The translations under genes were made by a program, and so were the position numbers. Under the pieces are notes generated by a model. The model worked only from the letters and a program-made list of their open reading frames with translations, was not told where the DNA came from and did not search any database. Of a stretch of 64,000 nucleotides of DNA, positions 17,358 to 62,994 are shown piece after piece. Origin of the DNA: Bacteroidales bacterium (GTDB taxonomy: Bacteria > Bacteroidota > Bacteroidia > Bacteroidales > UBA3663). Positions within the stretch are counted from its first letter, which is position 1. The number at the start of each line of letters is the position of its first letter. The DNA lies in the NCBI GenBank assembly GCA_017548545.1, contig JAFYZW010000135.1, forward strand, positions 1-64,000. Direction: 5' to 3'.

Positions 17358-20255
17358 ATGAAACAACGACAAGCAATTCCTCCCCCTAAGCAGGGGGACC
17401 GAGGGGGTCTCCTCGAACCTTTCAAACTCCTCAAACCCTTCAAACCGTCTATAGTTCCTATAGTCACTATAGCCACTATAGTCCTCTGTTCCTGCTCAAC
17501 CCCGCAGGAACCGCAATACCGTATCGGTGTTTCACAATGTTCCGAGGGAGCATGGCGCGAGAAGCAGAATGCCGAGATGGAGCGCGAACTGCTGCTGCAC
17601 GACGGCATTGCCATGGAACTGCGCTCAGCCGACGATGACAGCCGGCGCCAGATCGATGACATTCGATACTTTGTCAATCAGAAGGTCGATTTGCTCATCG
17701 TTTCGCCCTACGAAGCCGAAACCATCACCCCGATCGTCTCGGAAGTTTACGATGCGGGCATCCCCGTCGTGGTCTTCGACCGTCGTGTCGAGGGCGACAA
17801 ATATACCGCTTTTGTGGGTGGCGACAACGAGGGTGCAGGTCGTCTCATCGCCCGATATGCTCTGAGCCTGTCAAAACAAGGAGGCCAGATTCTTGAACTC
17901 GCGGGCGACATGAACACTACGCCTGCTCAGTTGCGTCATCAAGGCTTCATCAAGGAACTCGAAGGACATCCCGAATGGAAACTGCTTGCCACGGTCGATG
18001 CACATTGGTCGGGCGAAGAGGCCGCTGCCATGATCGATTCTTTGCTCACGCGATATCCCAACGTCGATGTCGTTGCCGCACACAGCGACTGGATGGCATG
18101 GGCGGCAAAAGACAAGACCCGGGAGCTTCGTCCCGAGAATAACATCCATTTTGTGGGTATCGATGGTATTGTAGGCAAGGGCCAAGGCATCGAAGCCATC
18201 GAACAGGGACGTCTCGACGCTACAGCTACCTATCCCACAGGGGGCGACATCATCATGCGTACAGCCATACAAATCCTCACCGGCCAGATATACGAAAAGG
18301 AAACGTTGCTCGAAAGCCACCTGATAGCAAGTCGTGAGGAGGCATTGCTCACCAGCAGCATGCAGCGCGCCATCGACCACGAAGCAGCCGACATCCGCCA
18401 ACTGCGCAACCGTCTGGATGAATATTGGCGACAGCACAGTCTTGAGAAGGCTTTGCGCAATACTTTGGGCATACTGTTGCTGCTCGCTCTTGGCCTCATG
18501 CTGACGCTTTATCTCTTCTACCGCAACAGCCGACGCACTAGCCGTAGCCTCGCCCGTCAGCGTGCCACACTCAAGGAGCAACGCGACCAACTGCTCACCC
18601 TGACGCGCGAACTCGAGGAAGCCAACAATGCCAAGATGAACTTTTTCACCAACGTGAGCCATGACTTCCGCACACCCCTGACGCTCATTTCCGCACCCAT
18701 CGAGAAACTGAGCCAGGACACCAATTTGCAGGACGCAGGCACAAGGCAGCTCCTGCAACTGGCGCAGAAGAACATCGGCGTACTGCGCCGACTCGTCAAC
18801 CAGATTCTCGACTTCCGCAAGACCGAGAGCGGCAAGATGACGCTCGACCTGCAACCCATCGACCTCAATGCCTCCCTATCGACCTGGACCGACTCGTTCC
18901 AGACACTGGCCGACAAACGCAAGATAAATCTTTTCTACCTGACCAGCGGACGCGGATTCAAGACCATGGCCGACGAAGCCAAACTCGAACGCATCTTCTA
19001 CAACATCATGGGCAATGCGTTCAAGTTCACTCCCGACGGGGGCGACATCAGCGTCTCTCTCGCACACACGGGCGATAATTATATAATACGTATCGGCGAC
19101 TCCGGTCCCGGCATCGCCGAGGAAGATCTCCAGAAGATTTTCGACAGCTATTATCAGGCCGACACCCTCCATTACGAAGGCACCGGTCTGGGGTTGGCCC
19201 TTGCCAAGAACTTCGTGACCCTGCATGGTGGCACCATCCAGGCTCAAAACCAGCCAACCGGCACAGGCTGCATCTTCACCATCTCCCTTCCCGCAAGGGC
19301 CATCGAGAATTCTCAGAGTTCTCTGAATACTCCGAGTATTCCGAGTACTCCGATCCCTTCCTCCGATCTCGAAACCCTCGAAACCCAGGAAGACCTCACC
19401 ACTTCCGACGACGAGCCCAAGCCCATCGCCCTCATCATCGACGACAACGCCGACATCCGGCTCTACCTGCGCACGCTGCTCGCCGAAAAGTATCGCACCC
19501 TCAGTGCCGCAAATGGTGAAGAAGGTCTGCGCAAGGCACAGGCTGCGGTGCCCGACGTCATCATCTGCGATGTGATGATGCCCGTGATGGATGGACTGGA
19601 GTGCTGTCGTCGGCTCAAGACCATGCCCGCTACAAGCCACATCCCCGTACTGATGCTCACCGCTTGTTCGATGGACGAGCAACGTGTGCGCGGCCTCGAA
19701 GAAGGTGCCGACGCCTACATCGCCAAGCCGTTCAGTAACGCTGTGCTATTGGCCCAGATGGATTCGCTCATCCGAAACCGTGCTCGAGTCATCGAGTCGG
19801 CTGTCCCGACAGTTGCCAGCAAAACTACAAAGCGTAGCACGACACCCGCTGTCGAGAAGTCTGTACCAACCAACATCACTGTTGCATCGACCACCGACGA
19901 AGAACCCGCATCACCACGCCTATCCAAATACGACGAGGAGTTCCTCGAAAAGCTGCACCAGCTCATCCAACAGCATCTCAGCGACGAAGGTTACTCCATC
20001 GAGCTCCTGTCCTCCGATATCTGCCTGAGCCGCACACAGCTCTTCCGCAAATGCAAGGCGCTCACTGGAACGAGTCCCGTCGAACTGCTCCGCAACACGC
20101 GTCTGCAAGCCGCACAGCAGCTTCTCGCCGAAGGAAAGGGCAGCGTTGCCGAGGTGGCTTACAGTGTGGGATTTGCCGATGCATCGTACTTTACACGCTG
20201 CTACAAGGCATATTTTGGCACAACACCACACGAAATAAACAAGCAAAAATATTGA
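17358..20255 (+). CDS. Hybrid two-component regulator with periplasmic sugar-binding sensor (BT1754-like)
   Basis: A 965-aa one-protein phosphorelay. After an unusual N-terminus built from repeats, a hydrophobic signal segment (SIVPIVTIATIVLCSC) leads to a LacI/ribose-binding-protein type sensor (about 54-325: DLLIVSPYEAE, GIPVVVFDRRV, HFVGIDGI). A membrane helix (about 372-392) is followed by a coiled linker, HisKA with His435 in NVSHDFRTPLT, an ATPase domain (GDSGPGIAEEDLQKIFDSYYQ, GTGLGLALAKNF), a receiver domain with Asp738 (ICDVMMPVMDG), and an AraC domain (about 850-965). BT1754 of B. thetaiotaomicron has this layout and senses fructose; with GH32 downstream, the same ligand is likely here. 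It should phosphorylate itself on ligand binding and activate SusC. Confidence 0.9.
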   Translation: MKQRQAIPPPKQGDRGGLLEPFKLLKPFKPSIVPIVTIATIVLCSCSTPQEPQYRIGVSQCSEGAWREKQNAEMERELLLHDGIAMELRSADDDSRRQIDDIRYFVNQKVDLLIVSPYEAETITPIVSEVYDAGIPVVVFDRRVEGDKYTAFVGGDNEGAGRLIARYALSLSKQGGQILELAGDMNTTPAQLRHQGFIKELEGHPEWKLLATVDAHWSGEEAAAMIDSLLTRYPNVDVVAAHSDWMAWAAKDKTRELRPENNIHFVGIDGIVGKGQGIEAIEQGRLDATATYPTGGDIIMRTAIQILTGQIYEKETLLESHLIASREEALLTSSMQRAIDHEAADIRQLRNRLDEYWRQHSLEKALRNTLGILLLLALGLMLTLYLFYRNSRRTSRSLARQRATLKEQRDQLLTLTRELEEANNAKMNFFTNVSHDFRTPLTLISAPIEKLSQDTNLQDAGTRQLLQLAQKNIGVLRRLVNQILDFRKTESGKMTLDLQPIDLNASLSTWTDSFQTLADKRKINLFYLTSGRGFKTMADEAKLERIFYNIMGNAFKFTPDGGDISVSLAHTGDNYIIRIGDSGPGIAEEDLQKIFDSYYQADTLHYEGTGLGLALAKNFVTLHGGTIQAQNQPTGTGCIFTISLPARAIENSQSSLNTPSIPSTPIPSSDLETLETQEDLTTSDDEPKPIALIIDDNADIRLYLRTLLAEKYRTLSAANGEEGLRKAQAAVPDVIICDVMMPVMDGLECCRRLKTMPATSHIPVLMLTACSMDEQRVRGLEEGADAYIAKPFSNAVLLAQMDSLIRNRARVIESAVPTVASKTTKRSTTPAVEKSVPTNITVASTTDEEPASPRLSKYDEEFLEKLHQLIQQHLSDEGYSIELLSSDICLSRTQLFRKCKALTGTSPVELLRNTRLQAAQQLLAEGKGSVAEVAYSVGFADASYFTRCYKAYFGTTPHEINKQKY
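17413..17484 (+). repeat. Two in-register nonamer minisatellites encoding the regulator's N-terminus and signal segment
   Basis: Eight consecutive 9-bp units. The first four are the TCAAACCCT family (TCGAACCTT, TCAAACTCC, TCAAACCCT, TCAAACCGT, 17413-17448). The last four are CTATAGTTC, CTATAGTCA, CTATAGCCA, CTATAGTCC (17449-17484) and are translated as the hydrophobic stretch of the signal segment. A palindromic CCCCCTAAGCAGGGGG lies just before them. Confidence 0.85.
19306..19386 (+). repeat. Nonamer repeats in the ATPase-receiver linker of the regulator
   Basis: Five 9-bp units related to CGAGTACTC (19306-19350) and, after a short gap, two identical TCGAAACCC units (19369-19386). They encode a Ser/Thr/Pro-rich hinge between the ATPase and receiver domains. 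Confidence 0.7.
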
Positions 20256-52461: not shown

Positions 52462-52470
52462 TCTTCTTTC

Positions 52471-52590
52471 GGTTAACGGTTAAGGGTTAATGGTTCACGG
52501 TTTTCGGTGCACGGTTAACGGTTACCCCAACCCCTCAACCATGAACCCTTAACCCCTTAACCCTTCACCATTAACCATTAACCCTTAACC
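52471..52590. repeat. Heptamer array with self-complementary halves
   Basis: Eight GGTTNNN heptamers (52471-52526: GGTTAAC, GGTTAAG, GGTTAAT, GGTTCAC, GGTTTTC, GGTGCAC, GGTTAAC, GGTTACC) are followed by seven or so NNNAACC units (about 52535-52590: ATGAACC, CTTAACC, CTTAACC, CTTCACC, ATTAACC, ATTAACC, CTTAACC). The halves are complementary over many registers and could form a long hairpin. It fills the space between two genes up to 8 bases before the next ATG. Confidence 0.8.
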
Positions 52591-55306: not shown

Positions 55307-57328
55307 ATGAATACAAAATGCATGTTGGCCGCCTTCGTGGCCATGGGCTGCGCCACCCTTGTGCAGGCCACCGGGCTCACACCCTCCTCTACGCTCACGT
55401 TGATTACCCCGGGCAACCCTGCCTGCAGCTATTCCTTGACGGGACGCGAGGGTAGGCTCACGGCAGCACAGCCCCTGCCCGTCACCATCGAGCGACAGGA
55501 GCAATCTGTGGCCGATGGCGTCACCACCATCACCCTGCGCATCACTGCCCAACAGACCATCTATTACAACTACAGCGAGCAGCTCTTGCCCGAAGGTGTC
55601 AGTCACGATGCATGCGATTTCTATATGCCAGGATTCTGGTACCACAGGAATCTGCGTTCGCCCAAGGAAGCACCCTCGTTCCACACCAGCGACAGCTGGC
55701 AGGTGCGCGAGGACCGTCTGTCGGCACCTCTCACTGCCATCCTCGACATGGAGCGCAGTCGATACTACAGCCTGGAACGCACTAATACGGGAACCGATGA
55801 CTGCGTGCTTCAGAACCTCTCGGGCGACGTCATCCTTCCGGGCCACACATCGGTGGGTTCCGTGGGCTTCGAAAATGTCGATGGCCGAGCCGCTTTGGTA
55901 TGTTCCTTCCCTTACGTTGAGGCACCCAAACGCTACATCCGCAAGCTCACGCTGATCGATTCCATCCGTACCTTCCAGAAACTTGCCGCAGGACAGACCG
56001 ACGTGGTGGTATGGACCCTGCGCCAGGGCGAGGCAGCCGACTTTTCGACCTTGGTACAACAGGTGTGGGAGAACAGTTTCGAGGCATACGCTCCACAACC
56101 TTTGGCCGATGCGCCCTATGCCGACGACGACGAGGCGAAGGATGCCCTTTCACCTTTCTTCATCGACAGTTACGTCGATCGCCACGAGTTGAAGTATCTC
56201 TCGGGCATGACGCTGCGTTGCGACGACTGCCTGCCACATGGCGACTACCAGATCGGCTTCGTGGGACGTGTGCTGCTCAATGCCGTCAATGGCCTGGAAT
56301 ATGGCGAAGCACGTGGTCGCAAGGACATCGTCGATGTGGTGAACCGTGTAATCGAAAGCCATCTCACCCACGGCTTTGGCCCCGAAGGCTACTTCCTCGA
56401 GAGTGGCAACCTCGAGCAGGGCTTCTTCGACCCCGTGCTTTCGATACGCCGACAGTCGGAGGGTATCTTCGCTATGCTCTACTACCTCCGCAACGAACAG
56501 CGCCAGGGCCGCAGTCACCCCGAATGGGAGGCACGCATTCGCCGCGTATGCGATAACCTCGTTGCCCTGCAGCAGCCCGATGGTTCATTTCCACGCAAGT
56601 TCACAGCCGACGGCAAGACTGTCGATGCCTCGGGTGGCAGCACACCTTCTGTGACTGCACCCCTCGTCATGGCCTATCGTTACTTCAAGAAGGACAATCG
56701 CAAGTACCTCGACTGCGCACGTCGCAGTGCTGCCTACCTCGAGCGTGAGATCATCGACAAGGCCGACTATTTCTCTTCGACCCTCGATGCCAACTGCGAG
56801 GACAAGGAGGCAGCCCTAGCAGCAGCCACAGCGACCTACTACATGACTCTTGTCACCACCAAGGCCGAACGTCAACACTACGTCGAGCTTTGCCGCAAGG
56901 CCACCTATTTCTGCCTCTCATGGTATTATCTGTGGGATGTACCCTTTGCACAAGGTCAGATGCTGGGTGACTTGGACTTCCATTCGCGCGGATGGGGCAA
57001 CGTCTCGGTCGAGAACAATCACATCGACGTCTTCGTCTTCGAATTTGCAGGCATTCTTCGTGCCATGGCCCGCGAGTGCAACGAACCTCGTTTTGCGACG
57101 ATGGCCGACGTAATCCGTTCATCGATGTTGCAGCTCATGCCCGCCCCTGGCCGAATGTGCGGCATCGGAAAGGCGGGCTTCTATCCCGAGGTGGTGCAGC
57201 ACACCCATTGGGATTACGGTCGCAATGGCAAGGGTTTCTACAACGATATCTTTGCTCCCGGCTGGACAGTCGCCTCACTTTGGCAGCTTCTTAGCCCGAA
57301 TCGTGTGGCTGAATTCTTTGAAAAGTAA
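55307..57328 (+). CDS. Exported alpha/alpha-barrel protein of unknown family
   Basis: A 673-aa exported protein (signal MNTKCMLAAFVAMGCATLVQA). The N-terminal domain (about 25-270) is a beta-sandwich with VADGVTTITLRITAQQTIYYNYSEQLL and the conserved-looking DFYMPGFWYHRNLRSPKEAPSFHTSDSWQ. The second part (about 285-673) is helical with repeated helix pairs, reading as an (alpha/alpha)6 barrel: NRVIESHLTHGFGPEGYFLESG, LVALQQPDGSFPRKF, GGSTPSVTAPLVMAYRYF, DLDFHSRGWGNVSVENNHIDVFVFEFAGIL, HWDYGRNGKGFYNDIFAPGW. Such barrels occur in many glycoside hydrolases and lyases; Asp/Glu in SFPRKF-, SVENNHIDVFV and FAPGW-type segments could be catalytic. I do not recognise the family. Final gene of the PUL, next to a large palindrome. 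Confidence 0.6.
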   Translation: MNTKCMLAAFVAMGCATLVQATGLTPSSTLTLITPGNPACSYSLTGREGRLTAAQPLPVTIERQEQSVADGVTTITLRITAQQTIYYNYSEQLLPEGVSHDACDFYMPGFWYHRNLRSPKEAPSFHTSDSWQVREDRLSAPLTAILDMERSRYYSLERTNTGTDDCVLQNLSGDVILPGHTSVGSVGFENVDGRAALVCSFPYVEAPKRYIRKLTLIDSIRTFQKLAAGQTDVVVWTLRQGEAADFSTLVQQVWENSFEAYAPQPLADAPYADDDEAKDALSPFFIDSYVDRHELKYLSGMTLRCDDCLPHGDYQIGFVGRVLLNAVNGLEYGEARGRKDIVDVVNRVIESHLTHGFGPEGYFLESGNLEQGFFDPVLSIRRQSEGIFAMLYYLRNEQRQGRSHPEWEARIRRVCDNLVALQQPDGSFPRKFTADGKTVDASGGSTPSVTAPLVMAYRYFKKDNRKYLDCARRSAAYLEREIIDKADYFSSTLDANCEDKEAALAAATATYYMTLVTTKAERQHYVELCRKATYFCLSWYYLWDVPFAQGQMLGDLDFHSRGWGNVSVENNHIDVFVFEFAGILRAMARECNEPRFATMADVIRSSMLQLMPAPGRMCGIGKAGFYPEVVQHTHWDYGRNGKGFYNDIFAPGWTVASLWQLLSPNRVAEFFEK

Positions 57329-57340
57329 TTTCATAATAGA

Positions 57341-57740
57341 GGAAGCACTCTGTCGGCCGACAGAGTGCTTCCGCAATTTGATAAAGTACTCTGGCGGCCG
57401 TCAGAGTGCTTGCGCGATTTGATAGAGCATTATGACGCGCGACAGAGTACTTCCGCAATCTGATAGAGCACTCTGACGCGCGACATAATGCTTCCGCGAT
57501 CTGATGGAGAACTCTGACGCGCGACATAATGCTTGCTGTGATCTGATAGAGCACTCTGACGGGCGACATAATGCTTCCGCGATCTGATAGAGCACTCTGA
57601 CGGGCGACATAATGCTTCCGCGATTTGATAGAGCACTCTGACGGGCGACATAATGCTTCCGCACTCTGATGGAGCACTCTGACGGGCGACATAATGCTTC
57701 CGCAATCTGATAGAGCACTACGACGGCCGACAGAGTGCTC
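57341..57740. repeat. Ten-unit 41-bp palindromic tandem repeat array
   Basis: Units start at 57344, 57385, 57426, 57467, 57508, 57550, 57591, 57632, 57673 and 57714; all are 41 bp except the fifth (42). Each has a left arm, a CGnCG centre, a right arm and a TTCCGCGATCTGATAG-like linker. The first is a perfect 32-bp palindrome (57341-57372). Central units have left arm GCACTCTG and right arm CATAATGC, the third has left arm GCATTATG. Two arm types, paired between neighbours, indicate a structured element. Confidence 0.9.
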
Positions 57741-58183: not shown

Positions 58184-58373
58184 TTTCGCAAATGCTCAAC
58201 TTGATGGATATTAAGGGATTTTTGGGGATATTAAGGGATATTAGGTGACGTCCCCTTCGCCTGTTGAGATTGGGGGCCAAGAAAGTCACGTCCGAGAGAA
58301 ACGTCCCTAAAAATCCCTTAATGTCCTTTAGAATCCCTTAGAATCCTCAACTTTCGCATTTGCGAAAGTTGAG
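58184..58373. repeat. 190-bp inverted-repeat element ending in a perfect palindrome
   Basis: TTTCGCAAATGC at 58184-58195 recurs inverted at the right end. Inner parts also match when complemented (ATTAAGGGATTTTTGGGGA left, ATTAAGGGATTTTTAGGGA right). The right end is a perfect 28-bp palindrome (58346-58373, CTCAACTTTCGCA with loop TT). No open reading frame inside; it resembles a non-autonomous repetitive element. Confidence 0.65.
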
Positions 58374-62603: not shown

Positions 62604-62876
62604 TTAAAAGTGACTCCGAGGGACAGTGGAGGGACGCAAAATAGGCAAAAATCTGCAAATATGACTGCCTTCAAAAAAATGCATGTGGCCCAATGGCAGA
62701 AACACTATTAGGGATCCATAACCAATCGAAGTGACTGAATAAGTAATGCCTTCAAATGTCATCGATGAAGGAATTTGACAAGTCAAGTTTGTTTTTGACA
62801 AGTTATTATTGCAAACAGCTGGAAAAACAATGAAACGAATGATAAATATGCATGTTTTTGAATCATATTTTTGCAA
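62604..62876 (-). pseudogene. Degenerate BspA-like leucine-rich-repeat fragment
   Basis: An open frame of 90 codons whose middle (62721-62786) reads LTCQIPSSMTFEGITYSVTS followed by IG, the standard IPxSVTYEGKTYSVTSIG unit of BspA/LRR_5 surface proteins of Bacteroidales. The flanks do not continue the repeat pattern and there is no signal peptide, so this is a remnant rather than a gene. It lies between the TPR remnant and the ATPase gene. Confidence 0.5.
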
Positions 62877-62961
62877 AGTCGCCCCGAAAAGTGTACATTT
62901 GTGGCCGAAAGTCGCCCCGAAAAGTGTAACTGGGGCTGAAAAAGTCGCCCCGAAAAGTGTA
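62875..62961 (+). repeat. Three 21-bp direct repeats spaced exactly 33 bp before the ATPase gene
   Basis: AAAGTCGCCCCGAAAAGTGT plus A occurs at 62875-62895, 62908-62928 and 62941-62961, all identical, separated by two different 12-base spacers. The last copy ends 33 bases before the ATP-binding protein start codon. The spacing, three turns of the helix, suits a cooperative DNA-binding protein. Confidence 0.85.
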
Positions 62962-62994
62962 ATTAAAGCAATAACCTATTCATATTCAACAATT

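Follow-up and report, generated by a model that had tools for sequence, protein, structure and literature searches.

Dispersed 9-bp repeats encode the N-terminal signal segment of a putative fructan-type sensor and change in number, in frame, between species of a rumen-type Bacteroidales clade

In an uncultured rumen-type Bacteroidales, a sensor gene begins with repeats that, judged from the sequence, encode an export signal. The original prediction saw in them a minisatellite whose gain or loss of copies could tune, from strain to strain, how the sensor is inserted into the membrane or exported. The question raised by this locus is therefore whether the unit number at the sensor serves such tuning or whether the protein has tolerated repeats that spread at the DNA level. 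The window, i.e., the whole stretch of DNA analyzed, comprises 64,000 nucleotides, and the positions given below and in the table refer to it. On the basis of its sequence, the product of the ORF at 17358-20255 is a fructan-type hybrid two-component sensor similar to 2X7X/BT1754. It has, in order, the signal, a Peripla_BP_4 sensor domain, a transmembrane segment, HisKA, HATPase_c, a response regulator receiver and an AraC-type HTH, so that all BT1754-type domains stand on a single chain. The closest PDB match of the sensor domain is 2X7X (E 1.5e-73), which we take to be the BT1754 fructose sensor. Linkage of the gene to GH32, SusC and SusD genes 3' of it was also confirmed. The likeness to the BT1754-type system thus covers domain order, sensor-domain similarity and the neighbouring GH32/SusCD locus, while the difference is an N-terminus built of dispersed repeats. 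The domains and the 2X7X match agree with the original prediction, which placed the array in the signal segment of a fructan hybrid regulator.

Table. Features of the sensor gene and its surroundings in the window.
Feature	Start	End	Strand	Remarks
Hybrid two-component sensor ORF	17358	20255	+	965 aa; best solved relative 2X7X
Palindromic REP-like dispersed element	17378	17414	+	TCCTCCCCCTAAGCAGGGGGACCGAGGGGGTCTCCTC; encodes PPPKQGDRGGLL
Array 1, four TCRAACNNN (CTCAAACCC-family) units	17413	17448	+	later part of basic n-region (EPFKLLKPFKP)
Array 2, four CTATAGNNN units	17449	17484	+	h-region SIVPIVTIATIV
Lipobox-like LCSC	17484	17495	+	Cys is codon 46 (17493-17495)
More 9-bp units (18- and 9-bp periods)	19307	19386	+	HATPase-receiver linker of the sensor
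Rest of fructan-type locus	20290	28321	+	SusC-like, SusD-like, DUF4960, GH32 (BT1760-like C-terminal domain)
CTCAAACCC-family array, 6 units	13904	13959	-	in frame in adjoining GH2 beta-galactosidase
CTCAAACCC-family array, intergenic	28358	28399	+	end of fructan locus

Direct reading of positions 17413-17484 gives TCGAACCTT TCAAACTCC TCAAACCCT TCAAACCGT CTATAGTTC CTATAGTCA CTATAGCCA CTATAGTCC in a single 9-bp register, and these eight 9-mers fall into two families of four units each, TCRAACNNN and CTATAGNNN. TRF independently detected both halves (17409-17445 and 17449-17483), and the frame of the ORF bears out the earlier translation of the first four units as EPFKLLKPFKP and of the last four as SIVPIVTIATIVL. 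The palindrome CCCCCTAAGCAGGGGG, said to precede the arrays, is present at 17382-17397, within the ORF, where it falls in IPPPKQGDRGG. The resulting signal has a basic n-region with a charge of +5, a hydrophobic stretch of 16 residues and LCSC, as in lipoprotein-type signals, with the Cys at -2 in LCSC being atypical for a lipobox. Comparison of the N-terminus with those of homologous regulators, which the original prediction had called for, placed a lipobox-like Cys at the equivalent position in 75 of 77 sensor homologues, and C46 is invariant in five sensor orthologues; because this residue is so widely shared, the signal is a conserved feature of the sensor. Conservation of the lipobox together with the hydrophobic stretch suggests that the N-terminus has remained functional as an export signal of the lipoprotein type. 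The hydrophobic part of this signal is encoded by a CTATAG array.

Sensor orthologues were compared among six species of one genus, each represented by one genome, with G000 being the genome of the window. The N-terminus reads MKQRQAIPPPKQGDRGGLLEPFKLLKPFKPSIVPIVTIATIVLCSC in G000, MKQRQAIPPPKQGDRGGLLKLLKPFKPSIVPIVTIVTIASILCSC in G006 and MKQRQASPLPPKQGGRGGLLIVFIASILCSC in G005. Compared to G000, the CTATAG-derived stretch is longer and the CTCAAACC-type units are one fewer in G006, while G005 has no CTCAAACC units and only two, degenerate, ATAG units. The sensors of G013, G010 and G003 have different n-regions and degenerate ATAGT units (IVTIG, FIVTIG, FLVTIGFIVTLG), followed by LSSC or LVSC. 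The hydrophobic stretch ranges from 14 to 21 residues across the six species, and the reading frame is kept in all six orthologues despite the differences in length. In-frame length change of the sensor repeats between species is therefore real, and the claim that residues can be gained or lost in threes without a frameshift holds at this level. The HATPase-receiver linker of the sensor also differs in length among orthologues.

Genome-wide counts of both unit families ruled out a minisatellite private to the sensor. CTATAGTNNCTATAG had 45 matches in the own genome and the 16-mer CTCAAACCCTTCAAAC, with 1 mismatch allowed, had 92, as compared to 0 for either reversed pattern; reversed-pattern controls for the dispersed repeats were at or near 0 throughout. 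Nine of the 15 genus genomes contained CTATAGTNNCTATAG (maximum 93 matches), and it was nearly absent from 45 other families of the order. A second 16-mer of the CTCAAACCC family matched 17 to 165 times in six genus genomes, 0 times in the other nine and near 0 times elsewhere; the CTCAAACCC family is confined to six related species, which group together in an unrooted Mfd tree, apart from the other seven genus genomes in that tree. The palindrome core has 3 copies in the own genome and was found in 9 of the 15 genus genomes, with 0 matches for its reversed control. Array regions are a biased sample except for two nearly whole contigs (278 kb), which contained eight period-9 arrays versus none in five shuffles. 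Both unit families and the palindrome are thus clade-restricted dispersed repeats. The original prediction stood with regard to the signal segment and to in-frame change between species, and it missed these genome-wide families.

The two unit families differ in how often they lie within genes. Among 91 CTATAG arrays drawn with their flanks from six genomes, 84 are intergenic, although coding sequence makes up about 90% of the DNA sampled (calls were made with a simple, home-made codon scorer), and they often stand directly upstream of genes. Of the seven that are not intergenic, two appear convincing, namely the array in this sensor and that in a GDSL-like protein of G010 (L179). Doubtful N- or C-terminal coding calls are those at L120, L218, L230:11804, L125, L171 and L180; L125 has a G006 counterpart called intergenic and an ORF without a Pfam match, while the calls at L171, L180 and L143 were judged start-site or ORF artefacts. 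In either strand, CTATAG arrays have one I-V-T-like frame, one Y-S-rich frame and one with stops. Since the hydrophobic frame gives (I-V-T)n, such an array fits a signal segment and little else in a protein, and an otherwise intergenic family is for this reason tolerated in the sensor. Six comparisons of orthologous intergenic arrays between G000 and G006 showed a difference in unit number in four.

By comparison, the own genome has 44 CTCAAACCC arrays with at least three units, of which 26 are coding and use all five stop-free frames (SNP 13, QTP 4, LKP 3, GLK 3, FE 3). Their Pfam-named hosts include MutS, Mfd, DnaX, a RecN-like SMC protein, CarA/CarB and DHPS (folP), as well as glycosidases, a helicase and a paralogous hybrid sensor, and a GH78 rhamnosidase gene carries four such arrays. 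In G000, the SNP-repeat arrays lie in frame at L231:2991-3044 (mutS) and L232:1062-1160 (mfd), both of them DNA-repair genes, and mutS itself acts on repeat stability. Unit number at orthologous coding places, i.e., in the sensor, mfd, mutS and folP, differs between species and always in frame. The mfd array has its greatest length in G000; G005, G006 and G013 have shorter versions, G010 a trace and G003 none. The mutS array is present in G000, G006 and G013 and absent in G003, with the MutS proteins of the relatives being 96-99% identical overall to that of G000. Relative to the approximately five units of DHPS in G000, G005 has more, G006 and G013 have fewer and G003 has none. In the mutS loop of G013 (L258), units of opposite orientation, GGTTCGAAT, come first and are joined head-to-head to CTCAAACCC units. 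The HATPase loop of the paralogous sensor contains LKP-frame arrays in G000, G005 and G006, an SNP-frame array in G010 and no repeat in G013 and G001; in G003 (L024), the REP-like palindrome stands in frame where the relatives have 9-bp arrays.

If the sensor were a contingency locus, selection would favor a variable unit number in the signal segment, such that strains would differ in how the sensor is inserted or exported. In favor of this, the 9-bp unit is a multiple of three, and both unit number and h-region length vary among the six species without loss of frame. The same length variation is, however, found in mfd, mutS and folP, which encode cytoplasmic core proteins, and in intergenic arrays, all six h-regions are within the range of the homologues, and the units have diverged from one another, which should slow slippage. 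As mfd, mutS, folP and the loop of the paralogous sensor vary in frame too, signal tuning is not the reason there, and we regard it as unlikely at the sensor. Taken together, the data point to DNA-level spread and slippage, tolerated by the proteins, as a simpler reading than adaptive tuning between strains. It is considerably more improbable that the DNA repeat is a side effect of selection at the protein level for simple linker peptides: the SNP frame accounts for more coding arrays than any other (13/26) and array sites are loops, linkers and a signal, but identical DNA units are read in five frames, lie on both strands and are found between genes as well, and one loop contains LKP or SNP arrays depending on the species. 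The variety in the loop of the paralogous sensor makes peptide selection hard to invoke, whereas DNA-level spread into a permissive loop fits.

Two further explanations treat the repeat-encoded signal as an artefact. The array could be an untranslated leader with translation beginning downstream, as CTATAG arrays are mostly intergenic and often precede genes directly; however, the sensor has no in-frame ATG between that at 17358 and codon 74, which falls inside the sensor region, and no GTG or TTG between the two, while in all six orthologues the frame stays open from an upstream ATG despite their different lengths, and the lipobox-like Cys follows directly after the array. With no further start codon ahead of codon 74, a start downstream of the array, which the original prediction had named as a finding that would speak against it, was rejected; any signal of this sensor would require translation of the array, and an untranslated leader is hardly credible. 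An assembly artefact is the least credible of these explanations, as arrays are found at orthologous places, with differing unit numbers, in metagenome-assembled genomes from independent projects (water buffalo, reindeer and the RUG series), even though the clade genomes identified by their record are all metagenome assemblies in draft contigs.

DNA-level spread and slippage, tolerated by the proteins, is thus our favored reading. It appears likely that the N-terminus of the sensor consists of three dispersed repeats, i.e., a REP-like palindrome, a CTCAAACCC-type 9-bp array and a CTATAG-type 9-bp array, whose units would have spread at the DNA level and whose arrays would then have lengthened and shortened in 9-bp steps through replication slippage. 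Steps of 9 bp leave the reading frame unaffected, and coding copies could survive for this reason and because the encoded peptide is tolerated at the site; the length changes in the sensor are probably largely neutral. The mfd array may have grown from a weakly similar local sequence, and part of the spread could therefore represent local growth and homogenisation rather than insertion. A Ser codon of mfd is AGC in G010 and G013, whereas G000 has TCA in the register of the array at this place, a hint that array sequence may overwrite its own edge. As to the palindrome, dispersed copies are present, but no match to RAYT (Y1_Tnp, PF01797) was found in the own genome (approximately 85% complete), and RAYT-driven REP spread was therefore set aside. 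Hairpin pairing of opposite arrays was also rejected as a general feature, with only 2 of 9 close neighbours inverted. More tentatively, and with clearly less confidence than in the reading above, an active sequence-specific process in this rumen-type Bacteroidales clade might plant and lengthen 9-bp arrays throughout the genome and continually add three-residue repeats, essential genes included, with the signal of the sensor having been built from one such array and kept.

Other repeats are also present in the window. An intergenic 41-bp tandem array of approximately 9.6 copies (57344-57739) directly follows a gene ending at 57328 and is not CRISPR-like because no spacers were seen. Two adjoining intergenic heptamer arrays with CGGTTAA and CCCTTAA units are found at 52470-52590, two intergenic arrays with a 10-bp period at 58206-58346, and 2.7 copies of a 33-bp tandem repeat, AAAGTCGCCCCGAAAAGTGTAACTGGGGCCGA, at 62875-62962.

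Several of these properties are already known separately, namely frame-tolerated dispersed repeats (RPE), leader-peptide repeats (opa) and short tandem repeats (STRR). Cyanobacterial STRRs are short, degenerate tandem units that are dispersed and mainly intergenic; they are heptamers, whereas the repeats described here are nonamers with a period of 9 and many copies inside genes. BrickBuilt of Porphyromonas gingivalis is, as here, a dispersed minisatellite in a Bacteroidales genome, and a MITE with a 23-bp unit and leader and tail inverted repeats that is always intergenic (PMC4596501); the arrays found here have a 9-bp unit, occur within genes as well and showed no flanking inverted repeats. 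Rickettsia palindromic elements are a dispersed family found between genes and in frame in unrelated core genes (PMC10969869), as is the case here, but they consist of a unit of approximately 150 bp with one conserved ORF, in contrast to 9-bp tandem units that are read in five frames and vary in number between species. The (CTCTT)n repeat of Neisseria opa likewise lies within a leader-peptide coding sequence and changes in number by slippage (PMC3960869), but its 5-bp unit shifts the frame (on/off), whereas the 9-bp unit of the sensor keeps the frame in six species and belongs to a genome-wide family. In the literature searched, no description of the nonamer families was found, nor of a nonameric family that is read in five frames in core genes and supplies an export signal.

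Dispersed repeats in bacteria are usually kept out of genes. In this clade, the unit length is frame-neutral, which allows repeats to be read in several frames within conserved enzymes and even to provide a signal for protein export. The differences in unit number between close species represent a natural series for the spread of repeats, for the tolerance of proteins to new segments and for the origin of signal peptides from non-coding repeats.
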